A stretch of 53,196 nt of DNA from a virus: positions 1 to 53,196 of the IMG/VR virus record IMGVR_UViG_3300037586_004576; one strand, written 5' to 3'. The notes under the pieces are model-generated. The model was given only the letters and a program-made list of their open reading frames with translations. It did no database searches and was not told the DNA's origin. The position numbers and the translations under genes were made by a program. Below, one piece after another: positions 7,138 to 53,196 of this stretch; position 1 is the stretch's first letter, and each line of letters opens with the position of its first letter.

Positions 7138-7923
7138 CTACCACAACCAGAGACCTATCGGCTCTCCCAACTTTATGGCCATCTCAATTATTTCATCTTT
7201 ATCTTTTTGACCTTCTTGCACTAAGTCTGATCCGTCATAATTAATAGTACCACCATCAGGAGTTGGCATACCAGCTACCTTCCGACGAGCACTACCGACC
7301 GCAATCCGTGCTTCAGCCAACATCATATCGTAAACCAGTTGTCTGGATTGCGGACTACGGAAATGATTCACTACAGGAGTGTAAAGGACAACTACTGGGA
7401 ACGCACCCTTGGGTGTCGGGTACAATCGAATCAACTGATCTTTTGCACTGAGTCCATCACCAACAATACCAGTGCCGTCTCCTTCACCGATCACTTCCCA
7501 GTGGCCTTCTGTCCCTAGAACTTTTTGGGAGAACTTGCGATAAGCTTGTAGAAGGTGGTAGTCGGTAAGGATGTTTTGAATACCAGAAATATTGCCGATA
7601 TTGAAAAGGAATGACTCGGCACCGAAGACGTCATCGATCCTGGTAGTGACAGGGTCCCAATTGACCTCTTGCACCCAGTAAGCATCCTCTGGTAGTGGGT
7701 AAGTGGACTGGAGAGGCTTGGTATAGAACAGAGATAATTTCTGTTCTCGAGGGAAATACCCAGCAATGAAGTCACCAGCGACCCGGAAGATTGTCTCCCA
7801 CTGGTCTTCAGAAATCTCCACCTCAGTGATAGGATGTCCCATTTTGGATAGGACATACTTCTTCATCGGGTCACTGCGGACCTTTAGGACACTCGGGAGT
7901 TCTGCTGGTGCCAGAATTGCCAT
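7138..7923 (-). CDS. gp13-like neck protein
   Basis: 261 residues. The N-terminal part reads VLSKMGHPITEVEISEDQW followed by a helix 'VAGDFIAGYF', the pattern I recall from T4 and cyanophage gp13 (L-G-x-P-x-[IV]-x-V-E-[LI]-x-x-x-Q-[IW] and an A-x-D-x-F-x-x-Y helix). A middle 'AYWVQEVNWDP' strand and a late 'LIRLYPTPKGAFPVVVLYTP' segment fit the beta domain. gp13 joins with gp14 at the phage neck after DNA packaging. The order gp13-like, 209-aa protein, gp15-like, sheath, tube follows T4 genes 13-14-15-18-19. The ATG overlaps the last base of the upstream ParB-like gene's stop codon (7923). Confidence 0.55.
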   Translation of the reverse strand: MAILAPAELPSVLKVRSDPMKKYVLSKMGHPITEVEISEDQWETIFRVAGDFIAGYFPREQKLSLFYTKPLQSTYPLPEDAYWVQEVNWDPVTTRIDDVFGAESFLFNIGNISGIQNILTDYHLLQAYRKFSQKVLGTEGHWEVIGEGDGTGIVGDGLSAKDQLIRLYPTPKGAFPVVVLYTPVVNHFRSPQSRQLVYDMMLAEARIAVGSARRKVAGMPTPDGGTINYDGSDLVQEGQKDKDEIIEMAIKLGEPIGLWLW

Positions 7924-8330
7924 TAACCCAACACCTCTTGGAAATCGCTAGGAAGACCACTAAGTTTAATTAATTTAGCTTGCACTTCTGACAACTTCTT
8001 CTGAACTGCTTTTTGAATTCTATGATTTCCATCGAGGATATAATTTATTGAATTATCGTCATTGACTATGATTAAAACTGGATATTTCAAATCAGCATTC
8101 TGTATCTTTCCTTGTTCTGCAGGATCATCACCATGAAGTGCGAGGTTAGACAATACTGATGTAGAGACATTTTGTATGGGGACATCTTTTATAATATCCA
8201 ACAATTTAGTGAGTGTGACAGTTGTTTCCCCACTTGTCCATGAATCATCTAGTCCCTCCTCATTGAAAATATCTGCGTCCTCAGTGATCAGATTCGTTAT
8301 GCTCATGATCGTGGCCTTTGTTATTGCCAT
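7923..8330 (-). CDS. Tagged ParB-nuclease-like protein with LITE leader
   Basis: 135 residues. Residues 10-20 carry SITNLITEDADIF, one of several 'L-I-T-E-D' leaders in this window (also at 18147-19481 and 24723-26261), ending in [LI]-x-E as T4-type prohead protease sites do. The rest contains 'YPVLIIVNDD', 'YILDGNHRIQKA' and a C-terminal helix. The D-G-N-H-R motif after a hydrophobic strand is typical of the ParB N-terminal/sulfiredoxin-like fold, which binds or hydrolyses nucleotides. GAGG lies 4 nt before the ATG at 8328-8330; an internal ATG at 8306 has none. I infer a packaged protein with a nucleotide-binding domain. Confidence 0.6.
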   Translation of the reverse strand: MAITKATIMSITNLITEDADIFNEEGLDDSWTSGETTVTLTKLLDIIKDVPIQNVSTSVLSNLALHGDDPAEQGKIQNADLKYPVLIIVNDDNSINYILDGNHRIQKAVQKKLSEVQAKLIKLSGLPSDFQEVLG

Positions 8331-15094: not shown

Positions 15095-15928
15095 ATGAAG
15101 CTCAAAGCAATTATAGAATCTGAATACGACGGCCTCGAAGACGCCGACGAATTTTCAGATCCTCACGCATGCCTACATTGTGGAGAATCTGAAGCCTGGG
15201 CATGGTGTAACCAATGCCATGCCAACATATGCACCGATTGTGGAACATCCGGTACATCGGTAGCTGAAGGTTGGGTATTCTTTATAGTTCCAGGAACCAG
15301 GTCCGATCCACCATACATCGAAGATGCCTATTGCCCGCAACACCGGGACATGATAGGGCCTGACCCACCCACCAACATTGTGGGACTTACGCGATACGAC
15401 TCGCCCAGCTTCCCGAACTGGATGTCACCATCAGCATTCCAAGCATACCTCCGCGATGAGTACAGAGATGGGGAAACTTGGGATGGTGGTCACGGGAAGC
15501 GTGGTCAGTGGGAGCATGGGGAAACTTGGGATGGGGAAACTTGGGATGAAATCAGCGAATCGATTAGTGATTACGACGGACTTGAGGACGCAGACGAGTT
15601 CAGCAACGACATCGAGTTTATGGGTGAAGCCAATTTAGGACCCCATATCTTCAGGGTCTGGCATCATAAACAGCTCAACAGAATCTCAATGGAAATCAAT
15701 GGATATGAATTAGGATTCGAAGATGATCATATGCCAACGGCCCAAAAAGAAGATATCCTCAAGAAACTAATCACTCTACGGCCAGATTTAGTTCCATTCG
15801 TCAAAGACCACAGCATCAATGGACAACTCATGGATACCGGTCTAGCACTGGTGCAAAATCAGCACAATGGGCAATTGGCTGTGCGAGGCGTGGGCGAAGA
15901 CAGACGCCGAAACTATGATACCTGGTGA
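15095..15928 (+). CDS. Tagged zinc-domain protein with two SDYDG elements, 277 aa
   Basis: Starts M-K-L-K-A-I-I-E, a leader ending I-I-E, directly followed by SEYDGLEDADEF (residues 9-20). A zinc-binding domain follows: 'CLHCGE', 'WCNQCHANICTDCG' and 'YCPQH'. A repeat-rich linker (G-E-T-W-D-G three times) leads to ISESISDYDGLEDADEF (residues 153-169), then a C-terminal domain with 'FRVWHHKQLNRISMEINGYEL'. The L/I-x-E positions match T4 gp21-type prohead protease sites, so I infer packaging and cleavage into a zinc domain and a C-terminal domain. No Shine-Dalgarno is present; the CAAAGATA element lies 4 nt upstream. Family unknown. Confidence 0.72.
   Translation: MKLKAIIESEYDGLEDADEFSDPHACLHCGESEAWAWCNQCHANICTDCGTSGTSVAEGWVFFIVPGTRSDPPYIEDAYCPQHRDMIGPDPPTNIVGLTRYDSPSFPNWMSPSAFQAYLRDEYRDGETWDGGHGKRGQWEHGETWDGETWDEISESISDYDGLEDADEFSNDIEFMGEANLGPHIFRVWHHKQLNRISMEINGYELGFEDDHMPTAQKEDILKKLITLRPDLVPFVKDHSINGQLMDTGLALVQNQHNGQLAVRGVGEDRRRNYDTW
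15470..15548 (+). repeat. Three copies of a 16-bp repeat (GETWDG)
   Basis: GGGGAAACTTGGGATG occurs at 15470-15485, 15518-15533 and 15533-15548. It encodes G-E-T-W-D in the linker of the tagged protein and probably arose by slippage or local duplication. Confidence 0.9.
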
Positions 15929-17638: not shown

Positions 17639-18136
17639 CTAAGACAATGATGGCCAACGAAGATATGGAATATCATTTAACTGCCTAACTAGAGCATCCC
17701 ACGATAAACGCTGTGCTGGAAGATGCTCACCGATAGCATGATACTCAAGTTCAGGCCAAGGAACCGGGTCCCCCGCCTTAGCGATAAATTCCCAATTAGG
17801 ATTGCTAGCTTTACCATATTCAGTGTCCATATAGACACTGCCACCATTAAGACCAGACGATAGATTAGCTATTGGGATCCAATAAGAATTACCCTGATAA
17901 ACAAACCAATGGCCCTCACGCTCACCAACATATCTGTATTCGAATTCATCCCAAATTGGACCTCTAAATTCGTCTGCATCCTCAAGTCCGTCGTAATCAC
18001 TCTCATTGAGCGATTTAGGAGGACCGAACCGTTCACAGGTTTCGCAATTCTCTACATCAGGGTAAGGCTCACTCTTCGGGAATTTCTTGCCGCAACTTGG
18101 GCAACATTTCTTTTCGGAGATAGTTCTAAGACGCAT
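17639..18136 (-). CDS. Tagged zinc-ribbon protein with one SDYDG element, 165 aa
   Basis: Begins M-R-L-R-T-I-S-E, a leader ending I-S-E, then a zinc ribbon 'CCPSCGKKFP' and 'CETCERFGPP' (residues 11-40). Next comes SLNESDYDGLEDADEF (residues 42-57; element at 17966-18001) and a C-terminal domain with 'YRYVGEREGHWFVYQGNSYWIPI' features. Possible cleavage sites are after I-S-E8 and L-N-E45, which would free the zinc ribbon. GTGAGG precedes the ATG. It lies 10 bp downstream of the 444-aa tagged gene. Packaged-protein status is inferred from the leader. Confidence 0.72.
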   Translation of the reverse strand: MRLRTISEKKCCPSCGKKFPKSEPYPDVENCETCERFGPPKSLNESDYDGLEDADEFRGPIWDEFEYRYVGEREGHWFVYQGNSYWIPIANLSSGLNGGSVYMDTEYGKASNPNWEFIAKAGDPVPWPELEYHAIGEHLPAQRLSWDALVRQLNDIPYLRWPSLS

Positions 18137-18146
18137 GACACCTCAC

Positions 18147-19481
18147 CTAATAAGATGCCTCGCCCACGTCCCAGCTCTCTTCATCCCCATCATCATACTC
18201 ATCATCGATCTCCTCATAATCACCACGATCGAATTGAGCTGGGGTTTCTGCCTCTAGATGAGCCATCAACTCTATGAGGGTTTCGCGAGGACCGGCCGGA
18301 TCTTGTCCGGACTTTATGGATTCGAGAGTATCGGCCAGCAACTTGTGTATTAGTTGTGGCTCTTGTACTGCTAAAGTAGAAACAACACCCGCCAAAGAGT
18401 GCCCTTTTGGGACGATTTGTAGGAATGCACGCCACAATTGCGGACCAACCTGGATTAGCCATGGTTCATCCTCAAGACGATCAGCTTCTTGGTAGATCCC
18501 AGCAAGTTGATTCTTGTCCAGACCCTCGAGACCATGATAAGACAATAATTCCATAGTCCCCTTCACCAGCTCTTGAACAAGAACCGGGAAATTGATAGCA
18601 CGAGCGATGACCTTAGCTTCCGATATCTCTTGCTCAGCCTCTAGCTCAAAGTCACCTTCTTGTGTCTCCTCTGCCTCGTACTGGCTTTCGGCGTCTGGGC
18701 TATCTTCGGCCTCATTATCCCCGTACTGGACGCGGGAAGTACCAACCGTGGCGTTGTCGAGCATCTCTCGGGCCATGTTTGCAAAATCGAGTAGCCAGTA
18801 ATAGTGAATAGAACCACTGGCAAACTGCCCGTAAGCCTGCAACAATTGTGGGTTGATCTTCGCTAATTGTTCTTTGGCAGCATGGTGAATAGATGCCATG
18901 TTATGAACCGCCGCCCCCTGAGTCAGGGTATTCATGGTGATTCGCTTATTCACCTGTTCCCGATCAATACCAACATTCTCGAGATCAATACCAACATTCT
19001 CGATATCTGTTGGTTCTGGGATCGCATCGTCTCCTTGACCAACAGCCTGAGGTGGCTCCAGCTTTCCGTCGAGCATCTCAAGCGGGATGCCCCAGGTCTC
19101 ATGGACTAATTGCATCGCAAGTTGTTCTAAATGCTGCTTATACGGTGCTTCAAGACGTGCAACTTGTTGAAACGCCCGCCCTACCAACTGAGGAGCCATT
19201 TGAGCGACTCGCTCCGGTTCCATTTGTTGGAGTTGCGGGAAAGCCTTCATAAGTTGTTCTACACTATGACCAAATGCACCTTCCGCAGTTTCAGCCCCAT
19301 ACATTGCCATAAGTGGATGAGCAGCAAACGGATGCCGAGATTGCCTAATCCCACCCCAGAATTGTTGGGTAGATGGGTGGCTCCCGCGTTCAAACCCCTC
19401 GATGATCATGGGGAGATCACCAAAGAACGTATTGGGGTCTTCAGTAATTAAAGATGCAATATAATCGACACGTTTATTCAT
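18147..19481 (-). CDS. Large acidic tagged protein with LITE leader, 444 aa
   Basis: 444 residues. Residues 7-17 read YIASLITEDPN, a leader ending L-I-T-E-D like those of 7923-8330 and 24723-26261. The body is helical and acidic, with 'IENVGID-LENVGID' repeats (DNA repeat at 18962-19003), a Glu-rich stretch containing 'EQEISEAKV' (another I-S-E, about residue 291) and an Asp/Glu-rich C-terminus. Two helical halves would be separated by cleavage at I-S-E. No Shine-Dalgarno is present; TCAAATATA lies 4 nt before the ATG (19479-19481). I infer an abundant internal capsid protein; no enzymatic motif is visible. Confidence 0.68.
   Translation of the reverse strand: MNKRVDYIASLITEDPNTFFGDLPMIIEGFERGSHPSTQQFWGGIRQSRHPFAAHPLMAMYGAETAEGAFGHSVEQLMKAFPQLQQMEPERVAQMAPQLVGRAFQQVARLEAPYKQHLEQLAMQLVHETWGIPLEMLDGKLEPPQAVGQGDDAIPEPTDIENVGIDLENVGIDREQVNKRITMNTLTQGAAVHNMASIHHAAKEQLAKINPQLLQAYGQFASGSIHYYWLLDFANMAREMLDNATVGTSRVQYGDNEAEDSPDAESQYEAEETQEGDFELEAEQEISEAKVIARAINFPVLVQELVKGTMELLSYHGLEGLDKNQLAGIYQEADRLEDEPWLIQVGPQLWRAFLQIVPKGHSLAGVVSTLAVQEPQLIHKLLADTLESIKSGQDPAGPRETLIELMAHLEAETPAQFDRGDYEEIDDEYDDGDEESWDVGEASY
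18962..19003 (-). repeat. 21-bp tandem duplication (ENVGID)
   Basis: The unit GATCAATACCAACATTCTCGA is repeated back-to-back (18962-18982, 18983-19003). In the minus-strand gene it encodes two 7-residue copies, IENVGID and LENVGID. Confidence 0.9.
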
Positions 19482-23214: not shown

Positions 23215-23718
23215 ATGCAACCACGATCAATTATTCTATGCTTGCTTTTGATGGTTTTTGGCATATCATCTGCCCAAGCACAACGAGCAACACTTGTAAA
23301 ATTACCAACTGGTCAACATATTGGCATCGCCTATACGTCGTCTGGCGAAATGATAGTGCTAACCAATATCCAGATCCTCGAGTTGCCAAGCCCTACACCA
23401 CCCCCGGCAAAGATCAAAAGAGCGATAGTGGTGATCGAGTCGGGGGCATCAACACAAGAGACCGCGATCCTAATCGCGGGAATCAGGAACAACCAGACAC
23501 TATCGCGGAAAGTAGTGATTCTAGACCCGGACACCAAGAACGAACAGAGGAAGTCAGACCCACAAATTCAAGCCGCGATCAAACTGATGGGAGAAGACGT
23601 CTCTTTCCCCGCCTTAATCGGTTTAGACGGCGACGGTAAACCTGTCTTAGTAGTACCAATCAAAAAGAATGCTAAAGTTAGTGATATCGAATTACAACTA
23701 AAAAAGTGGGGACTCTGA
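23215..23718 (+). CDS. Exported thioredoxin-fold-like protein without CxxC, 167 aa
   Basis: 167 residues with a signal peptide (M-Q-P-R-S then IILCLLLMVFGISSAQAQ, A-x-A site near residue 22). The mature part looks like a thioredoxin-type alpha/beta fold: 'KRAIVVIESGASTQETAILIAGI', 'KVVILDPDTKN', 'VSFPALIGLDGDGKPVLVV', where 'S-F-P-A-L' resembles the cis-Pro loop. The usual C-x-x-C is replaced by S-G-A-S, so it should not be redox active. It lies 15 bp after the first exported gene and 1 bp before the protease gene, clearly one operon. Confidence 0.6.
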   Translation: MQPRSIILCLLLMVFGISSAQAQRATLVKLPTGQHIGIAYTSSGEMIVLTNIQILELPSPTPPPAKIKRAIVVIESGASTQETAILIAGIRNNQTLSRKVVILDPDTKNEQRKSDPQIQAAIKLMGEDVSFPALIGLDGDGKPVLVVPIKKNAKVSDIELQLKKWGL

Positions 23719-23719
23719 T

Positions 23720-24601
23720 ATGCCATACGTTTCTCCATCAATTCAAACCATCACCGATGACATTCTTGACGTTGACCTTGCGGTCGAATCTCGCAAGGTA
23801 AACCGTCTCATGGGATACATAGCAGACGACCCATTAGACATAAATATGGGGCTCACTGATTACGGTGCCGATAATAAGATCTATCCACGATCAGAATGGC
23901 CTGATCGCATTGAAGCGATGGATAATGCCAAAGCATGGAAGCAATACCGCATCACTTATCGACATGATCAAAATGGCGAACCATCTTGTGTCTACAATAT
24001 GGCATCCTCAATCGTCGAGACTGCCTGGAATACACAATTTGGTGATCACAATGCTATTAACTTGTCGCCGATTTCAGGTTACCGGTGGAACGGATCCCCA
24101 CGCAGTGGTTCCAATATTTATGGTTCAGCCAAGTGGTGCGAAGAAACAGGCTTGCTTCCACTTCGTGATGACCGCAACCTCGAACTTGTTAAGCGTGGTC
24201 TGTTCGATCATACCCATCCACATAATGGGTATCATGGCAAATTCATGGATGATTGGAAAGAGACCGCGAAATGCTTTCGACTCCAGGAATGGTATCGAAT
24301 TGAATCTGTCGAAGCTTGGGTTTCAGCTGCAATCAACGGATTCGGCCTCGGTGGCGGTCGTGATGGTCATGCGATTTTTCATTGCCTTATCGGCATTGAT
24401 GGCAGAAACATCTACAGTGGCTATTCAAATTCTTGGGGTCCGTGGGGTGCTACCCTGGAGATTAGCGGCGGAGAAAAATTGAAATCGTTCGGATTTGATA
24501 GTGAACGTAAGATTCAAGCAATGGTAAACCATGGTGCTTATGCAGGACGTACAGTGCTTCGCCCATCTTGGATGCGTGAGAACATTCATACGGCCGTGTG
24601 A
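23720..24601 (+). CDS. Papain-like (C1 family) cysteine peptidase
   Basis: 293 residues. It carries the three papain landmarks in order: 'QNGEPSCVYNMASS' with the likely catalytic Cys (residue about 93, in place of Q-x-x-x-C-G-S-C-W), 'GRDGHAIFHCLIGID' with the catalytic His, and 'GYSNSWGPWGATLEI' with Asn in the conserved N-S-W-G-x-x-G. No signal peptide is present, unlike the two preceding genes, so it may act in the cytoplasm, be packaged, or cleave the exported partners during export. GGGGA precedes the ATG. Bacterial C1 peptidases are usually effectors or processing enzymes. Confidence 0.85.
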   Translation: MPYVSPSIQTITDDILDVDLAVESRKVNRLMGYIADDPLDINMGLTDYGADNKIYPRSEWPDRIEAMDNAKAWKQYRITYRHDQNGEPSCVYNMASSIVETAWNTQFGDHNAINLSPISGYRWNGSPRSGSNIYGSAKWCEETGLLPLRDDRNLELVKRGLFDHTHPHNGYHGKFMDDWKETAKCFRLQEWYRIESVEAWVSAAINGFGLGGGRDGHAIFHCLIGIDGRNIYSGYSNSWGPWGATLEISGGEKLKSFGFDSERKIQAMVNHGAYAGRTVLRPSWMRENIHTAV

Positions 24602-24722
24602 AAGCAACACTCAATCGCTCTTCCAAAAAGAGCCATATTGACATGAGACAAATTGCATAATCTCATCAATTCCTAATCCTTCAGCGACCAATGGCCCCAA
24701 CCACGAATTCACTGCTGTGATG

Positions 24723-26261
24723 CTAGATTTGGTCTTCGTAGACCCCGAATTTGTCCATAGATGCATCAACTTCTAGGGATATGTCTGGATTTTCCGTGAT
24801 GAGGTTGGCGATTAATCTGACTCGATTTTCAAACCATTGGTGCATTGGAGATGCTGCCTTATAATCGCCAGGTATATTATACTGTTCTAATTCTTCTGGC
24901 TTTTTCGCTTGTTTTTCGGCTTCTTCTTTCTCTTTACGTTCTTCTTCCCTTTTTTGGTATTCTTCTTTTTCGCGTTTTCGTTTCTCACGAAATTCTGAGC
25001 TCCAGAGCGAGCGATTCCAGAGCGATTGTTGGATATTTTTTATTTCAGTTTGGGCTGCCTCTTTATTGACAATACCCTTTCGCATCAGTGCTCCAGCACC
25101 TTGAATAGTGCCTCTTAACTTTTCTAATTGCTGATGGTTCATGCCAATTTGAGCCATGAAGTTTGGGTTCAGATCTAGCAGGTCATGTAGCCAAACCCAA
25201 AATTGATCATCAATACCGATATTTTCATTAGCATAATCCTTCTGCAAACTCGCAATTATGTCCTTAAAACTGAATTTCTTAATCATTGCCTGTAAAATAT
25301 GATTCTTGAACCCTTCAAATCCTGGGATATCATTTAAAGCACCACTAGCATCCCCCAGTATGAATCGATTCATTAAATCGGCTGGATCTTCAGAGTCTGA
25401 CTCATCAAGCATTTGTCCGATTACAACTTCTACAGGCAGGTTATCCGGAATCTTCAGGTTGTGTAGACCACTTGGTGCTCGCCGTATTCCAGCTGCCGTA
25501 GCGGACGAAACCCATTGGGCGAGATGGTCCTTATAAGCCTGCTTCATAAACTTTAGATTATACTGCCCATCCTCTGCTTGGTCAACAACACCTTGAACGG
25601 CGGTTGGACGTCCATGGACGGTTGTTCGCACCTCGACCTGACGAAGCTTTCTACCATTCGCAATATCGAATATGACGTCACTGATTATGCCTGTGTTGAA
25701 ACCCGCCGCTTTATATTGTCTATATGCCTTTATTGCTTGTGCATATTTGTCACTAGCTCCAGTCAACATACTTACTATATTATTTGGGGTTGTAGCAGCA
25801 GACCCCATCGTTTTAAGAAAATCCCTACGACGCCAATTCTCTTGAAGATTATGGCCGCTATGTTCCGCAGGCCCAGAACAGGCAGGACAGTAGGCTATGA
25901 GTAAAGTCTCTGGATATGTATGGTTTATCCCGAGTTGTTCTGCTGTTCTCCAAACAAATTCTTCTCGTTCTGCACATTTGGTGCAGTATTTTCGCTCGCA
26001 ATTTTGGCAGTAGCGTATATTCTCACGCAGCTGAGTCAAATCGTATCGATCACCGCAATTATAACATTCTTCATGATAATGATCCCCGAATTCATCAGCA
26101 TCTTCGAGACCATCGTAGTCGCTAGCCTCTAAAACAGGCTTCCAGCGGGTTCCGTCTGGATTGTATCCAAATTCCTGACCATCTTTGGTTTTGAGAAAAT
26201 ATGCACCATTCCATATATCCGGATCTTCCGTAATCAACAAAGCTATAACATTAGGATTCAC
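24723..26261 (-). CDS. Tagged zinc-domain protein with LITE leader and SDYDG element, 512 aa
   Basis: Starts (GTG) M-N-P-N-V-I-A-L-L-I-T-E-D-P-D, leader ending L-I-T-E. Residues 16-46 repeat those of the 249-aa gene, followed by SDYDGLEDADEF (47-58; DNA 26088-26123) and a zinc domain: 'CYNCGDRYD', 'YCQNCERKYCTKCAERE', 'YCPACSG'. The central 300 residues are helical, then a highly charged Glu/Lys/Arg coiled coil (about 420-460). The C-terminus contains RLIANLITENPDISLEV, a second leader-like L-I-T-E, and ends GVYEDQI. Cleavage would give three or more fragments. GAGG precedes the GTG. Confidence 0.7.
   Translation of the reverse strand: MNPNVIALLITEDPDIWNGAYFLKTKDGQEFGYNPDGTRWKPVLEASDYDGLEDADEFGDHYHEECYNCGDRYDLTQLRENIRYCQNCERKYCTKCAEREEFVWRTAEQLGINHTYPETLLIAYCPACSGPAEHSGHNLQENWRRRDFLKTMGSAATTPNNIVSMLTGASDKYAQAIKAYRQYKAAGFNTGIISDVIFDIANGRKLRQVEVRTTVHGRPTAVQGVVDQAEDGQYNLKFMKQAYKDHLAQWVSSATAAGIRRAPSGLHNLKIPDNLPVEVVIGQMLDESDSEDPADLMNRFILGDASGALNDIPGFEGFKNHILQAMIKKFSFKDIIASLQKDYANENIGIDDQFWVWLHDLLDLNPNFMAQIGMNHQQLEKLRGTIQGAGALMRKGIVNKEAAQTEIKNIQQSLWNRSLWSSEFREKRKREKEEYQKREEERKEKEEAEKQAKKPEELEQYNIPGDYKAASPMHQWFENRVRLIANLITENPDISLEVDASMDKFGVYEDQI
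26084..26216 (-). repeat. 133-bp perfect direct repeat, copy A
   Basis: Identical over 133 bp to 26742-26874 (offset 658). It encodes the segment from I-W-N-G-A-Y-F through the SDYDG element. Copy A lies 15 codons after the start of the 512-aa tagged gene. Complete identity indicates recent duplication or gene conversion. Confidence 0.97.
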
Positions 26262-26298
26262 AACAAACCCTCGTACTCATTTGTGATAGTCTTAAGTT

Positions 26299-27048
26299 TC
26301 ATACCAAGATCTTCTGTAAGGCTAGATTAAGATCACCAGCCTGAATGAGTGCCATCAGTTCAAGCTCTTCATGCTCAGCTTGCCCTATAGGGCTACCTAC
26401 AGTCTCCCTGGGCCACCTCCAAAACCGGTCTAGTGTCTCTTGACAGAACACTAAAGCTGTATTGATGAGTTCTTTCGCAAACGGTTTACATCTCTCAACC
26501 GCCTCATCAAAGGTCGCAAATATCTCTGGTTCATTCCACGGTGTAACATCTACCTCAAAAAAGTGATATTCTACACGTGGAGCACCTCCTCCTTCGTAAA
26601 AATTCATCAAATTAATAATGGCAATATTGTTTTGCGGCGGCGAATTAATATTGCCAACTCGGTCATTGCCACGTGGTGGCCATAGTTGCTTTTGAAGTTC
26701 TCGTGTGATAACAGCTTGCTTCTCGATTTGGTCTTCGTAGACCCCGAATTCATCAGCATCTTCGAGACCATCGTAGTCGCTAGCCTCTAAAACAGGCTTC
26801 CAGCGGGTTCCGTCTGGATTGTATCCAAATTCCTGACCATCTTTGGTTTTGAGAAAATATGCACCATTCCATATCTTGGCTTCAGCGAAATCATCATAAG
26901 ACATGTCCGCAAAAGCGGCTTTCTGAATTATCTCAGGGAGGTCATAGAAGTATAACTTCTGGACACGATCCCGCTTCTTGGCCTGAGATACAGGATCAAT
27001 CTCAGACTTATGAGTTAACTGTAATTCAGCTATCAGACGTAATCGCAT
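26299..27048 (-). CDS. Tagged protein with MRLRLIAE leader and SDYDG element, 249 aa
   Basis: Starts M-R-L-R-L-I-A-E, leader ending I-A-E. A short helical part is followed at residue 59 by the segment shared with the 512-aa protein (IWNGAYFLKTKDGQEF and onward) and SDYDGLEDADEF (90-101; DNA 26746-26781), then GVYEDQIEK, which matches the C-terminus of the 512-aa protein. The C-terminal half has 'VEYHFFEVDVTPWNEP' and 'FATFDEAVERCKPFAKEL'. So a shared cassette sits between two unrelated domains. It lies downstream of a glycosyltransferase with a 23-base overlap. Confidence 0.68.
   Translation of the reverse strand: MRLRLIAELQLTHKSEIDPVSQAKKRDRVQKLYFYDLPEIIQKAAFADMSYDDFAEAKIWNGAYFLKTKDGQEFGYNPDGTRWKPVLEASDYDGLEDADEFGVYEDQIEKQAVITRELQKQLWPPRGNDRVGNINSPPQNNIAIINLMNFYEGGGAPRVEYHFFEVDVTPWNEPEIFATFDEAVERCKPFAKELINTALVFCQETLDRFWRWPRETVGSPIGQAEHEELELMALIQAGDLNLALQKILV
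26742..26874 (-). repeat. 133-bp perfect direct repeat, copy B
   Basis: Second copy of the 133-bp repeat, internal to the 249-aa tagged gene. A further 26-bp identity (26725-26750 with 24726-24751) links the sequence after this copy with the 3' end of the 512-aa gene. Confidence 0.97.
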
Positions 27049-29199: not shown

Positions 29200-29730
29200 C
29201 TAGCCCTGTTTTGTAATCATGTCAGGAGTGACAAGAAGTTCAGTATTGCATCCGATGAACTTCTCCATCTTATAACTAAAGATCCAACCATCAGGAAGTT
29301 CAACACCCAAATAAAACTGGCTATTAGAAGTCGGATCTGTAGCATCTAGAATAGCTTCTGGGATAAAATCATGATGTGATCCATCGTCGTAAATCTTACG
29401 CTCGATGTGTCTAACACACTCCAGAGGATACGTCAACAGAAACGCACCACGACCAGTCACATACTCAATCGGATCATATCCTGAAATAAGCTTGTGTGTG
29501 AACCAAATCAAACCCTGCTCACTCTTACGAGGACTCAGGACGTACTGGCCATCCCTCTGATCGATCTCACCCATATCTGCGTCAAATCCGCGATATAGAT
29601 CCAATTTATATGGAATAATAGTCGGAGGTTGTGTTTCCACCAACTTGGGTCTTGGTGGAGTATCACCAAATAAATCCCAGGCATCTTGTGCTCTTGGCGG
29701 ACGACTTTCAGCTATTTTGTTGAGACGCAT
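29200..29730 (-). CDS. Tagged protein with MRLNKIAE leader; possible ADP-ribosyltransferase-like fold
   Basis: Starts M-R-L-N-K-I-A-E-S, leader ending I-A-E, then a Pro-rich spacer (about 9-40). The domain begins 'YKLDLYRGFDADMGE', with 'YVLSPRKSEQGLIWFTHKL', 'EYVTGRGAFLLTYPLECVRHIE', and 'GVELPDGWIFSYKMEKFIG'. L-Y-R-G followed by a W-F-T strand and a later E-x-x-x-x-x-x-x-x-E region loosely recalls ADP-ribosyltransferases (R, S/T, E). T4 Alt is a packaged, leader-cleaved ADP-ribosyltransferase, so this would fit the tag, but the motif match is weak. No Shine-Dalgarno; CAAAAATA lies 4 nt before the ATG. Confidence 0.6.
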   Translation of the reverse strand: MRLNKIAESRPPRAQDAWDLFGDTPPRPKLVETQPPTIIPYKLDLYRGFDADMGEIDQRDGQYVLSPRKSEQGLIWFTHKLISGYDPIEYVTGRGAFLLTYPLECVRHIERKIYDDGSHHDFIPEAILDATDPTSNSQFYLGVELPDGWIFSYKMEKFIGCNTELLVTPDMITKQG

Positions 29731-40179: not shown

Positions 40180-40486
40180 TCGGTGGTGGTCCCCACGCTC
40201 CCTTTTGGAAGCCTACACTTGGTTGCTTGTTATCTAATACGGCACTCTTTACAGTGCCTGATGTGGTATTACTTGGAGGCCGCGACGCCTGGAAGGCACC
40301 CCTATTGAAACTAGGGACCTTCTGCTGCTCGAGCTGCGAAATGAGATTTTCAGCACGAACCGTGTCAGTCGACTTGACATTCTTCCTACGTTTCTTCTCG
40401 GCCTGCTTTTTCTTCTTCCGCTTCCGCTCCAGAGATTTCTTCTTGGTCTGCTGCCGAGCCTTCGTCTTGTTTCTTTTGTTGGACAT
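40157..40486 (-). CDS. Basic Lys/Arg-rich protein, 109 aa
   Basis: 109 residues. The first 40 are almost all Lys, Arg, Gln and Asn with heptad-like spacing; the rest is low complexity ('ENLISQLEQQKVPSFNRGAFQ', 'NEHTEEG'). It may bind DNA or RNA, or be disordered. It overlaps the upstream polymerase-like gene by 101 bases in another frame, so one of the two ends may be shorter in life; an ATG is present at 40484-40486. Confidence 0.45.
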   Translation of the reverse strand: MSNKRNKTKARQQTKKKSLERKRKKKKQAEKKRRKNVKSTDTVRAENLISQLEQQKVPSFNRGAFQASRPPSNTTSGTVKSAVLDNKQPSVGFQKGAWGPPPNEHTEEG

Positions 40487-41696
40487 GGGTAATTCCGCTC
40501 TCGCGATACTCTCGCATCGTGTGCCATTTCTTCCAGCGTTTACCTACACTCACCTTCAACGGGAACGCAGGATCAGTTTTTAGCACACCCCTGAATGGGT
40601 GCAACATGATTTCGGAAACAGTATCTATCGCTGACTTGATACCACGAGATGTGGGATGGGCAGATATGACTAACGAGTCATGGATTTCAGTAATCAGACA
40701 CTGCGGAATCACTTCCCAAATCCGCCTGATCGACAATTGCATAGCATGAGCAACAGATCCTTGCATCACCCCATTAAGGACCGCCAAATCATTCTTTGCC
40801 TGAGCCCTACGGAATCTACGTTTCAGCAATGTCTCAAGATACCCATTATCACGCGACAAAGTCTGCTTACACCGCCCAATCCAATCACCAAGTTGTGGGT
40901 AGACAGATGAGAGAGCGGCACTAGTAAAGTCCATTGAGTTAATCGACTTCAGCAGATATGTCTTACATTCATCCCTAGTCAACAAATCAGTCGTCGCCCC
41001 CTTATTTAACTCCTCCATCATAACCATATATGGATCAGACGATTCAAAAGCAACCTGAAGGTTCTCATCCTGGGATAGTAATGACGCCACGCGAATATCA
41101 GCACAAATCCAATCAAAATGAATCAAAATCGAATCATCCGGCATAGCTGTAGATCGAATTTTATCATTATTAGAGTATCCCTGAATATTGAATTTAGTAG
41201 TCTTGCTGCGTCCAGAAAACGTCTTCTGCGACCAAACCGGCTTTTCAAGTCCGTAGTTAACCAACAGCCCCTTATCCTCTAAATCCTGGTAGACCACAGC
41301 AGCATTGGCCATAACACGCTGATATTCCCGAGTCGGTGCTCCAACCATTTTGGCCAAGATTTTACGGACCAAAGCATGATCACTTTGCTTCTTCCCAGTT
41401 GATCTAACATCAGGAAGATGAAGATCATAAATGTTATAATGAGTAGTGTCCCGTGGTATATTAAAAGCCTGAATATGGCTTTTAAAGTCAGATAAAACAA
41501 CTGGGCGGCCCTGAGTATTAGCCAACAAGATTAAATTTCGAATAATCTTGGTTTGTTTAAAGAGATCGGCGATAGATTTACGATCGCCAGCACGATACAA
41601 CTCTGCCAAAACCACTTGACCACCGTCAAAAATTCCGGTGCATCTGGGGAGTCTAGTAACGTGATCAAATAATGTGTAAACATAAAGATTGCTCAT
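40386..41696 (-). CDS. Diverged family A DNA polymerase-like protein
   Basis: About 436 residues from ATG 41694-41696 (ATG 41699 is adjacent; GAGG lies just upstream). Family A palm landmarks: motif A as 'LIHFDWICADIRVASLLSQDENL', a diverged motif B region 'RDECKTYLLKSINSMDFTSA', then 'NDLAVLNGVMQGSVAHAMQLSIRRIW' (like N-x-P-I-Q-G-[ST]-A-A-D) and motif C 'LITEIHDSLVIS', where the usual H-D-E is H-D-S. The N-terminal part lacks a recognisable 3'-5' exonuclease. It is much shorter than Pol I. It may be a replicative or repair polymerase with the separate exonuclease at 37561. The acidic 3' end overlaps the next gene. Confidence 0.7.
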   Translation of the reverse strand: MSNLYVYTLFDHVTRLPRCTGIFDGGQVVLAELYRAGDRKSIADLFKQTKIIRNLILLANTQGRPVVLSDFKSHIQAFNIPRDTTHYNIYDLHLPDVRSTGKKQSDHALVRKILAKMVGAPTREYQRVMANAAVVYQDLEDKGLLVNYGLEKPVWSQKTFSGRSKTTKFNIQGYSNNDKIRSTAMPDDSILIHFDWICADIRVASLLSQDENLQVAFESSDPYMVMMEELNKGATTDLLTRDECKTYLLKSINSMDFTSAALSSVYPQLGDWIGRCKQTLSRDNGYLETLLKRRFRRAQAKNDLAVLNGVMQGSVAHAMQLSIRRIWEVIPQCLITEIHDSLVISAHPTSRGIKSAIDTVSEIMLHPFRGVLKTDPAFPLKVSVGKRWKKWHTMREYRESGITHVQQKKQDEGSAADQEEISGAEAEEEKAGREET

Positions 41697-41737
41697 CATA
41701 GCCTCGACACCTATCAACACAGGCAAACAAGGCCGTG

Positions 41738-46617: not shown

Positions 46618-47157
46618 ATGGCACTGAATAAGAATGAAAAGCTTGTCCTGGAGGCCATCGATTCGATGCTCCAGCAGGACGCCAAACTAGGTTTGGTCAT
46701 CCACGACAAGCAGCACGAAGAAACCGGTGCGGCCGAACGTGGATATGAATATCTACATGGCCAAATCGACGATATGTTCCAGGTCAAGGCCGCCGAACTA
46801 GTACACGCAGAAAGCGTTTGCCAAGCATTCCGCTCAGTGCATAATTATAAGTATGTCGACGATCCATCCTTCGGCACCGCTATGGAAAAGCAAATGGTGG
46901 CCCAAGCAGTGCCAGCCGCCGAACGCACCAAAGCCACCGACTTCGTCCCAGCCATTATCAAAGAGCTGAAGACCGAACAAAAAGAATGGCAAGAGAAGGA
47001 TTTCGGATTCAACCCAGCATTAAACGAAATCCGCGAAGCCAGCAAGCCCGAACAACCGATGGACTTCAATATCGAAGAAGTCGATGGCTGGCCCACTGAC
47101 TCAAATGTCGATTGGGATCCGGGCAACGCAAGTCCTGACCGGACTCCCAGTGACTAA
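46618..47157 (+). CDS. Hypothetical protein, 179 aa, partner of tagged gene
   Basis: 179 residues, acidic and helical: 'NEKLVLEAIDSMLQQDAKLG', 'AAERGYEYLHGQIDDMFQVKAAELVHAESVCQAFRSV', then 'DFVPAIIKELKTEQKEW' and an acidic tail ending in Asp/Pro repeats. Strong GGAGGA precedes the ATG. The stop TAA overlaps the ATG of the triple-tagged gene (TAATG at 47155-47159), so their translation is coupled and they may act together. No signal peptide and no leader of the I-x-E type. Family unknown. Confidence 0.6.
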   Translation: MALNKNEKLVLEAIDSMLQQDAKLGLVIHDKQHEETGAAERGYEYLHGQIDDMFQVKAAELVHAESVCQAFRSVHNYKYVDDPSFGTAMEKQMVAQAVPAAERTKATDFVPAIIKELKTEQKEWQEKDFGFNPALNEIREASKPEQPMDFNIEEVDGWPTDSNVDWDPGNASPDRTPSD

Positions 47158-48149
47158 TGAAACTCTTCCAGATCTCTGAATCTGATTACGACGGACTCGA
47201 AGATGCCGATGAGTTCGCATCTAACTGTAATTATTGCGGCGAGCTCTATGAACAAACCAATATACCGTGTATTGGTGGGTGTGGCAAAGAAGTACCACTA
47301 GATATCTGTGCTCAATGTGCGGGACGTCACGAGGATCGCGAATCATATTCTTTTAACGCACAAAGATGGTGTCCAAATTGCTGGGGCAGTAGACATTGGG
47401 CAAAACCAGTATCTGAATCTGATTACGACGGACTCGAAGATGCCGATGAGTTCGGCGAACCTTCTCTAGGTCCGTGCTATGGCTGCAGAATGGATGTCCC
47501 AGAAGACAGCGTCGGCCCTTGGGTATGTGACAGATGCGATATCGCTGTCCACTTCAGTTGTGCGATGCCGACCCAAAAAGACATTCACCAATACGACAGC
47601 CAACGGGAAGGAATCACATCGACCGGCTGGTACTACCGCCCAGAACCAGGGCAATATTTTCGCCAAAATCACAATGTTCTCCAGGGTCAGCGAGTACTAG
47701 CTGCCACTCGATGCTACGACGTCTACACTTGCCCAAATTGTGCCAAAACTGGGAACTTAACGGAATCGTCTGATTACGACGGTCTCGAGGACGCGGACGA
47801 ATTCGAGAAGGACTACGAGATAGAATGGAGATCGGTTTACCAATTCACCATAGCATGCGACCAAGTCACACTCCTGATTGACGTCAATAGTCCCCAACGG
47901 TGGGATGTGATGTTCGGTGAGAACATCATAGATGATTTCGACCTCAGCTTCATCCAGGAGCTTGCCACCTGGTTAGGAGTCCAATTCTATCATCAGACGT
48001 CGTATGAGAAGTTGACCGAAATGATTAAAGATAAGGTCTACCTCAGAGCGTACAAAGATAATAGGTGGCGCTGGCCTCCGCAATGGGGCCGCCTCTGGGA
48101 ACCTCCTCAAGGTTTCCCACCAAAAGAACCACCTGATTGGTATTATTAA
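47157..48149 (+). CDS. Triple-tagged modular zinc protein (three SDYDG elements), 330 aa
   Basis: Starts M-K-L-F-Q-I-S-E, then SDYDGLEDADEF (residues 9-20), zinc domain 1 ('CNYCGE', 'PCIGGCGKEV', 'CAQCAGRH', 'CPNCWG'), then VSE and element 2 (88-99), zinc domain 2 ('CYGCRMDV', 'VCDRCDIAVHFSCAM', 'YTCPNCAK'), then LTES and element 3 (205-216), and a C-terminal non-zinc domain ending in a Trp/Pro-rich tail. Each element follows an [LIV]-x-E, so a prohead protease could cut the chain into leader, two zinc peptides and the tail domain. Elements 1 and 2 are identical over about 40 bp; element 3 differs at synonymous sites. Confidence 0.75.
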   Translation: MKLFQISESDYDGLEDADEFASNCNYCGELYEQTNIPCIGGCGKEVPLDICAQCAGRHEDRESYSFNAQRWCPNCWGSRHWAKPVSESDYDGLEDADEFGEPSLGPCYGCRMDVPEDSVGPWVCDRCDIAVHFSCAMPTQKDIHQYDSQREGITSTGWYYRPEPGQYFRQNHNVLQGQRVLAATRCYDVYTCPNCAKTGNLTESSDYDGLEDADEFEKDYEIEWRSVYQFTIACDQVTLLIDVNSPQRWDVMFGENIIDDFDLSFIQELATWLGVQFYHQTSYEKLTEMIKDKVYLRAYKDNRWRWPPQWGRLWEPPQGFPPKEPPDWYY

Positions 48150-48182: not shown

Positions 48183-48425
48183 GTGAAATTGCGGCAAATC
48201 AACGAAAACCTGATCATGCAGCAAGTCCGGGGGCAACTACTCAGGTCTGGGCCGTTCGCCGCACGTCCATTCGTCACATCCAACCAACTCTATGATTCAT
48301 CTAGAGGGATGGATTCTGGTACCAGGGTATCTAGTGGCACTTATCTCCCAACCGGGGTGCCGCAAAAACCACGACACCGCCAATACCTCGGTATGGAAGC
48401 AAGACCAGGGACGATCAGACTCTAA
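48183..48425 (+). CDS. Small tagged protein with MKLRQINE leader, 80 aa
   Basis: 80 residues starting (GTG 48183) M-K-L-R-Q-I-N-E-N-L, leader ending I-N-E. The mature part is basic and low in acidic residues ('QQVRGQLLRSGPFAARPFVTSN', 'QYLGMEARPGTIRL'). A size and composition like this resemble T4 internal proteins IPI-IPIII, small basic proteins carried in the head. It lies 33 bp after the triple-tagged gene on the same strand. No Shine-Dalgarno is obvious. Confidence 0.55.
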   Translation: MKLRQINENLIMQQVRGQLLRSGPFAARPFVTSNQLYDSSRGMDSGTRVSSGTYLPTGVPQKPRHRQYLGMEARPGTIRL

Positions 48426-52696: not shown

Positions 52697-53196
52697 TCAT
52701 CATCAACCAGATCGTCGAGGTCTTTTTCCTCTGACATCCCTTCGGCTGGTTCCAGCTTAGGGATAGGTCTGTCTTCTGTGGCCAACGAAGGTGTCTCCTG
52801 TACCTCCGGTGGAGCTCCAGCAGATTCAGACGGCTGAGGAGGGGCGTCGCCCTTAGACTTTTTCGTAGCCTTTTTCGTAGCCTTTTTCGTAGCCTTTTTC
52901 GTAGCCTTTTTCTTGGTCTTCTTGGCAGCCTTTTTCTTGGTCTTCTTCGGCTCCTCGACCACTGATTCCTCAGACGGCTCTTTCGGTTGCTCAATAGCGA
53001 GCGATTCGTCATTCAGATCGGTCTCAGAATCATCTTCCAATAGGGCACTGGTTGAATGTGAAGCACCATCAGCACCATCAGCACCATCAGCACCATCAAC
53101 CATCGCCAAACGATCAGCAACCGTCTCCTCCGGATCGTCAACGATAACTTGTTCATTAGGATCATGCAGCAAAGGATCTAACTGAAAGCTCTCAAT
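52693..53196 (-). CDS. Lysine-rich, histone H1-like protein (5' end outside window)
   Basis: At least 167 residues; the frame is open to the right edge (I-E-S-F-Q-L-D-P at the edge). It consists of an acidic start, a GAD repeat (53062-53097), an acidic segment, a K-K-A-T repeat block (residues about 85-110 from the edge, from 12-bp DNA repeats at 52859-52906), and an acidic Pro-rich tail. The A-T-K-K-A-T-K-K composition resembles histone H1-like bacterial proteins and basic linkers that condense DNA. Low-complexity repeats make homology inference unsafe. It overlaps the UGM-like gene by 4 bases. Confidence 0.65.
   Translation of the reverse strand: MESFQLDPLLHDPNEQVIVDDPEETVADRLAMVDGADGADGADGASHSTSALLEDDSETDLNDESLAIEQPKEPSEESVVEEPKKTKKKAAKKTKKKATKKATKKATKKATKKSKGDAPPQPSESAGAPPEVQETPSLATEDRPIPKLEPAEGMSEEKDLDDLVDDE
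52859..52906 (-). repeat. Four 12-bp tandem repeats (Lys-rich block)
   Basis: TTTTTCGTAGCC occurs four times back-to-back at 52859-52906. In the minus strand it encodes repeated A-T-K-K units. Confidence 0.95.
53062..53097 (-). repeat. Four 9-bp tandem repeats (GAD)
   Basis: AGCACCATC occurs four times at 53062-53097, giving G-A-D repeats in the minus-strand protein. Confidence 0.95.

Follow-up and report, generated by a model that had tools for sequence, protein, structure and literature searches.

Exact repeats in two neighbouring tagged genes of a jumbo T4-like myovirus support sequence exchange centred on a dispersed peptide tag

Results

We analysed the whole of the 53,196-nt IMG/VR fragment IMGVR_UViG_3300037586_004576 (the window), in which two neighbouring genes on the minus strand carry the same peptide tag, DYDGLEDADEF. 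One is a 512-aa ORF with a GTG start (24723..26261), whose translation opens with the leader NPNVIALLITEDPD (class-B leader MNPNVIALLITEDPD, encoded at 26217..26261) and continues through a cassette, the tag (26088..26120), a zinc-ribbon-like Cys cluster and a long body to a second LITENPD near the C-terminus (24783..24803, located by sequence comparison). The other, a 249-aa ORF (26299..27048), is translated with the leader MRLRLIAE, overlaps a conserved 276-aa gene at its start and has its tag at 26746..26778; both tags were located with the tag pattern. No homologue of the 512-aa ORF was found among INPHARED phages and IMG/VR, neither of the two proteins had a confident match in PHROGs or Pfam, and single-sequence AlphaFold models were poor (mean pLDDT 45 for the 512-aa protein and 33 for a 176-aa leader-bearing protein described below) and were set aside. 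A 14-codon frame, MKLKTITNEYEGLL-stop (26258..26302, minus strand), occupies the junction of the two genes and consists of a class-A leader and a truncated tag; its ATG overlaps the stop codon that ends the 249-aa gene, and its own stop codon overlaps the GTG start of the 512-aa gene. The 512-aa protein also contains a Tat-like sequence, RRDFLKTMGSAATTP, at about residue 145 (window position 25829, minus strand).

The two genes share two exact repeats, both read on the minus strand. Copy 1 of the longer repeat (26084..26216), right after the LITEDPD leader of the 512-aa gene, matches copy 2 (26742..26874), which lies in the 249-aa gene with the tag at its end, at 133 of 133 bp, and identity stops at both edges; the shorter pair (24726..24751 and 26725..26750) matches at 26 of 26 bp, and a separate repeat search agreed on both pairs. 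Because exact repeats in size-matched shuffled sequences reached 17-18 bp at most, both repeats are far above chance. Translation of the 133 bp gives an identical stretch of 44 residues in both genes, IWNGAYFLKTKDGQEFGYNPDGTRWKPVLEASDYDGLEDADEFG, which follows MNPNVIALLITEDPD in the 512-aa ORF and is internal (residues 59-102) in the 249-aa ORF. The 26-bp copy forms the C-terminus of the 512-aa protein, FGVYEDQI, in which GVYEDQI equals the residues just after the tag in the 249-aa protein. A first-pass annotation had described the 133-bp identity with its common cassette, the different placement of that cassette in the two genes and the C-terminal match, and our comparisons and translations agree with it on each of these points. 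Two other contigs with matches to a 17-mer of the 26-bp block (L024 and L025) gave no alignment to the window and were dismissed as chance.

The two repeats are related in their arrangement. Within the 249-aa gene, 9 bp (AATTCGGGG) belong to both the 133-bp and the 26-bp block, which together form a single contiguous 150-bp tract at 26725..26874 (minus strand). In the 512-aa gene this tract is divided, with 133 bp after the leader, 26 bp at the C-terminus and a 1,332-bp body (24752..26083, minus strand) between them, and AATTCGGGG, present once in the 249-aa tract, is found at both edges of the body. Since the tract is split in this manner, the 133-bp and 26-bp exchanges are probably two halves of a single history, and the complete lack of differences between the 133-bp copies indicates that the pair is recent or was recently homogenised.

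The window was overlapped by seven other contigs at an identity of ~99.9% or better. Contig G005 (IMGVR_UViG_3300037634_004439), from another metagenome and with 3 differences from the window in 20.4 kb, includes all of copy 2, 127 bp of copy 1 and the unique sequence between the copies, each copy being in its own unique setting. It and contig G007 (IMGVR_UViG_3300010155_005175) terminate inside the 133-bp repeat, stopping 6 and 10 bp short of its edge, and positions 23231-26083 of the window were absent from every other contig found, so that the join from copy 1 to the body is supported by the window alone. Both the restriction of the 512-aa gene body to a single contig and the breaks of G005 and G007 exactly at the repeat would fit an assembly artefact, in which the repeat joined phage sequences that are not adjacent or one copy was a duplicated assembly path. 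Contig breaks at this position are, however, also expected of a true two-copy repeat, the independent metagenome of G005 contains both copies in unique settings, and the join from copy 1 to the body yields the usual order of tag and then Cys cluster, as at 18 of 31 tags; we therefore consider an artefact very unlikely.

The genome to which the window belongs is that of a jumbo T4-like myovirus. Tail sheath, UvsX, a DnaB-type helicase and a single-strand binding protein are encoded on the window, which together with contigs G009, G003 and G001 is collinear with, and falls in a single order (G009, G003, window, G001) along, a 408-kb relative, G010. Contig G009, assigned to the window's phage by collinearity with G010 and the shared tag, without overlapping sequence, encodes terminase, baseplate gp25, an S77 prohead protease (PF03420, E 9e-18) and a Gp23 capsid protein (E 1e-79); a PF03420 profile search of the window, G001 and G003 gave no match. 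Elsewhere in the window, a 446-aa ORF (40386-41726, minus strand) had a partial match to phage DNA polymerase profiles only and is possibly a split or reduced polymerase, and a 159-aa ORF near the window end contains short tandem repeats of 12-bp and 9-bp units (52858-52912 and 53062-53098).

The tag has the consensus [DES]YxGLEDxDxF, and at least 20 copies were found in the window's phage, 11 in the relative G011 and 11 in the relative G020. Across the window's phage and G011, no copy departs from the consensus at Y, G, L, E, D, the second D or F, and tag copies differ synonymously at an average of 4.7 of 11 codons; because the residues are kept while the codons differ, selection conserves the tag peptide and most copies are old. 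A Cys cluster follows 18 of 31 tags. Other tagged genes in the window are a 277-aa gene (15095..15928, plus strand) that begins MKLKAIIES-EYDGLEDADEF and has a second, internal tag at 15569, a 165-aa gene (17639..18136, minus strand) with the leader MRLRTISE and an internal tag at 17998, and a 330-aa gene with three tags (47157..48149, plus strand) that is inserted relative to G010 and has an orthologue in G020. Searches of G010 and of a further relative, G012, found no tag. Among 2.9 million viral contigs scanned, one match only was added to the known carriers: contig G021 fitted a relaxed pattern and was not confirmed by a stricter one. Tag-like matches in bacterial genomes were single occurrences that look like chance. 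Neither was retained. On G001, a 497-aa protein (54460-55953, minus strand) contains five tags, several of them followed by Cys clusters, and an entire class-A leader (MKLKHITESDYAGLEDADEF) stands in mid-frame, as if two tagged genes had been fused.

Leaders of two classes, M[KR]L[KR]xIxE (class A; usual form MKLRxIxE) and IAxLITEDPD (class B), form the usual start of tagged proteins and also occur on some untagged ones, with the endings IIE, ISE, IAE, INE and ITE. The class-A leader forms the N-terminus of 12 ORFs in the window's phage (one of them partial, at a contig end); in G010 the class-A pattern matched 10 times. The bodies behind these leaders are unrelated, and internal occurrences were nearly nil. 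Both G010 and G012, tagless as they are, still carry the leader. Among the leader-bearing proteins of the window are three untagged ones, of 80 aa (48183..48425, plus strand; class-A leader KLRQINE, conserved in G010), 176 aa (29200..29730, minus strand; class-A leader MRLNKIAE) and 444 aa (18147..19481, minus strand; class-B leader VDYIASLITEDPN), as well as a 135-aa protein with the leader IMSITNLITEDAD within the tail-gene region (7923..8330, minus strand).

The same [LIV]xE ending, which approximates the cut-site rule of T4-type prohead proteases, recurs at the tags themselves. It ends 0-5 residues upstream of 18 of 20 tags, compared with a background of 8.3%, and the binomial P of 6e-18 for this association is overstated because the motif is weak and many of the tags share ancestry. 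All 11 tags lying well inside proteins follow the rule with varied sequences, some with V for L or I, and [LIV]xE precedes 8 of the 11 tags in G011; the residues that separate it from the tag differ (S, SS, AS, SIS or DAN). On G009, a 93-aa LITEDPD protein is encoded immediately before the prohead protease gene, the capsid precursor contains LTE-DA and ILE-DQ, and the protease N-terminus also has a matching site. Directly after the leader, Tat-like signals (MKLSLIIEAEFTRRNFLKSMAGAAAALSG; MKLSAIIEVDSRRDFLKKSGAGIAN) are present in L054:9792-9997 (at the end of G009) and G012:136442-137299; if the leader is removed by cleavage, such an export signal would come to lie at the new N-terminus. A search for an ADP-ribosyltransferase cargo family found only a sub-threshold match to PF18760 (E 3e-5) in one leader-bearing protein of G010 (L094:18463-18891, minus strand), which recalls T4 Alt.

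Like the 133-bp pair, nearly all dispersed repeats elsewhere in the genome are found at tags or leaders. With tandem repeats left out of the count, ~168 kb contained 15 dispersed exact repeats of at least 23 bp, 14 of which were at or no more than 60 bp from tags or leaders, and the 133-bp pair was the longest of them. A 79-bp leader and tag block encoding MKIDPKKIARMISEDPDESDYDGLED is identical in two different genes of G001, and 48 bp of it are found in a third. Tags 1 and 2 of the 330-aa gene show no differences and share 43 identical bp, while those of the G020 orthologue differ from each other at 6 of 33 bases; between a window tag and its G020 counterpart there are 7-8 differences. Because tags 1 and 2 are alike in the window and divergent from their counterparts, we conclude that a genome homogenises its tags.

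The first-pass annotation had also proposed a comparison of related phages at the same loci. Precisely where the 249-aa gene starts, G020 has a leader (MRLRQIRE) and tag on an unrelated body. The genes that flank window positions 20.55-27.03 kb are directly adjacent in G012, and ~22 kb of other genes occupy this slot in G010; the 330-aa gene is likewise absent from G010, where its flanking genes are adjacent. These slot comparisons indicate that tagged genes are the variable cargo of fixed slots and that leader and tag outlast the body. Sequence exchange between tagged genes, centred on the tag, is thus supported, and the earlier suggestion that cassettes move between such genes stands to the extent that exchange is concentrated at tags and leaders, for which the 79-bp block and the G020 slot are the more direct cases. 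The repeat itself does not bear out the idea of a tag handed to new cargo: both genes already have leaders, and the 26-bp piece, which sits at and beyond the tag end, contains no working tag.

Discussion

We think it probable that the repeat records recent copying between neighbouring cargo genes that bear leader and tag, within a capsid-targeting system in which the amplified tag acts as a recombination seam. The 150-bp tract, taken either from the 249-aa gene or from a common source, would have been copied into the 512-aa gene, whose body would then be flanked by the two parts of the tract with their common 9-bp edge. The seam would lie at the tag, each copy of which offers ~33-40 bp of partial homology for joining one gene to another, and recombination at tags would reshuffle leader, tag, spacer and body. 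Such a seam resembles PeSL, the mobile promoter/stem-loop cassettes of T4-type phages that Arbiol et al. 2010 and Comeau et al. 2014 are said to have described, in that gene modules of T4-type phages are exchanged at seams made of short repeats; PeSL are intergenic promoter-terminator motifs, whereas the seam considered here is a protein-coding tag inside reading frames.

The junctions in relatives bear on the direction of copying. In other genes (G001, G009, G020 and G011), LITEDPD stands next to the tag or close to it, the 31-residue cassette being missing from between the two, and what comes after the DASMD of the 512-aa C-terminal region is different in G011 (DASMD-PSMEA); the G011 stretch homologous to the second LITENPD (IAALITEDPDIFMELDASMD) lies close to the N-terminus of a protein predicted to have 156 residues. 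Because the relatives read through both junctions with no cassette, the recipient was apparently the 512-aa gene, and we infer that transfer ran from the 249-aa gene to the 512-aa gene. An older 512-aa arrangement would reverse this order and make the 249-aa tract a deletion scar, left when recombination at the 9-bp AATTCGGGG removed the body of a duplicated gene of the 512-aa type; the single occurrence of AATTCGGGG in the tract and its presence at both body edges do form the pattern of a direct-repeat deletion, but the continuity of relatives across both junctions (LITEDPD-tag; DASMD-PSMEA) again marks the 512-aa gene as recipient, and we judge a scar of this kind unlikely. The same exact 9-bp flanks could be read as the target duplication of a mobile element, now the body of the 512-aa gene, that had entered the cassette. 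With no inverted repeats of at least 20 bp in the region and none visible at the ends of the body (24752-26083), no transposase found and a body in frame with the tag, we give insertion almost no weight.

As to the function of the tagged proteins, capsid targeting is the best reading because the leaders, the [LIV]xE sites, the S77 protease and the T4 parallels point the same way when taken together. The leader (MKLRxIxE or IAxLITEDPD) would direct the protein into the prohead core, as in the T4 internal proteins, and the S77 prohead protease would cut after [LIV]xE, with the tags left attached to the mature pieces or lying between them; a protein that has several internal tags may be cut into several zinc-ribbon-bearing pieces. 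Packaging of tagged proteins into the head is plausible on the sequences at hand, and we infer that the proteins may be packaged, cut and injected. Many tags lie inside proteins, in association with zinc-ribbon-like Cys clusters, and G010 and G012 have the leader without the tag, as might be expected if the tag were a motif for protein interactions that have nothing to do with the capsid (for instance, with a host or phage regulator), with the upstream [LIV]xE as part of the motif. That alternative seems to us rather unlikely, given the identical leader types on untagged proteins (one encoded just before the prohead protease gene), the matching sites in the capsid precursor and protease N-termini, and the variable residues between [LIV]xE and tag, which are those expected of a cut site and spacer. 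Capsid targeting also admits a broader, tentative proposal, which we regard as possible if doubtful: [LIV]xE-(0-5)-[DES]YxGLEDxDxF may be a dispersed address-and-cut label of one small jumbo-phage group, homogenised in each genome and acting as a recombination seam that hands bodies to leaders, and genes with two to five copies may encode polyproteins that are cut in the head into zinc-ribbon proteins.

The closest parallel is the capsid targeting sequence (CTS) of T4 and its relatives. In T4, L/I-X-E is the site after which gp21 cleaves, IPIII needs no more than its first 10 residues to be targeted, and processing of Alt takes place at its two termini (PMC9026906); the internal proteins of T-even phages are diverse defence proteins with the CTS as the sole common part (PMC3012670). 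Like the CTS of IPI-III and Alt, the leader here is short, N-terminal, common to unrelated proteins and ends near L/I-X-E, and, as in T4, a gp21-type S77 protease and a Gp23 capsid are encoded, here on the collinear contig G009. LITE also occurs close to both termini of the 512-aa protein, a parallel to the two-ended cutting of Alt (PMC9026906, PMC3012670). The leader resembles the CTS in length, position and ending only, and its targeting role in this phage is a prediction from sequence. Unlike the T4 CTS, the leaders here are of two types and are accompanied by an extra conserved tag, with up to five copies per protein (the 497-aa ORF of G001), that is not described for T4 in PMC9026906 and PMC3012670. 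The jumbo heads of phiKZ and SPN3US contain many internal proteins, several of which are cut after x-X-E motifs (PMC5694885, PMC10052503); the propeptides of their ejection proteins are mostly long, with the motif S/A-X-E in phiKZ, whereas the leaders here have ~8-15 residues and [LIV]xE. In P1, the Dar defence proteins are directed to the head by an N-terminal CTS, but no common N-terminal consensus was found among them, in contrast to the strongly shared leader described here (PMC9024508).

If this account is true, it would show how a large phage keeps altering the proteins that it carries into its host, with one short genome-wide label being both loading signal and gene-splicing site, and it would provide a simple sequence rule for predicting the cargo of uncultured jumbo phages.
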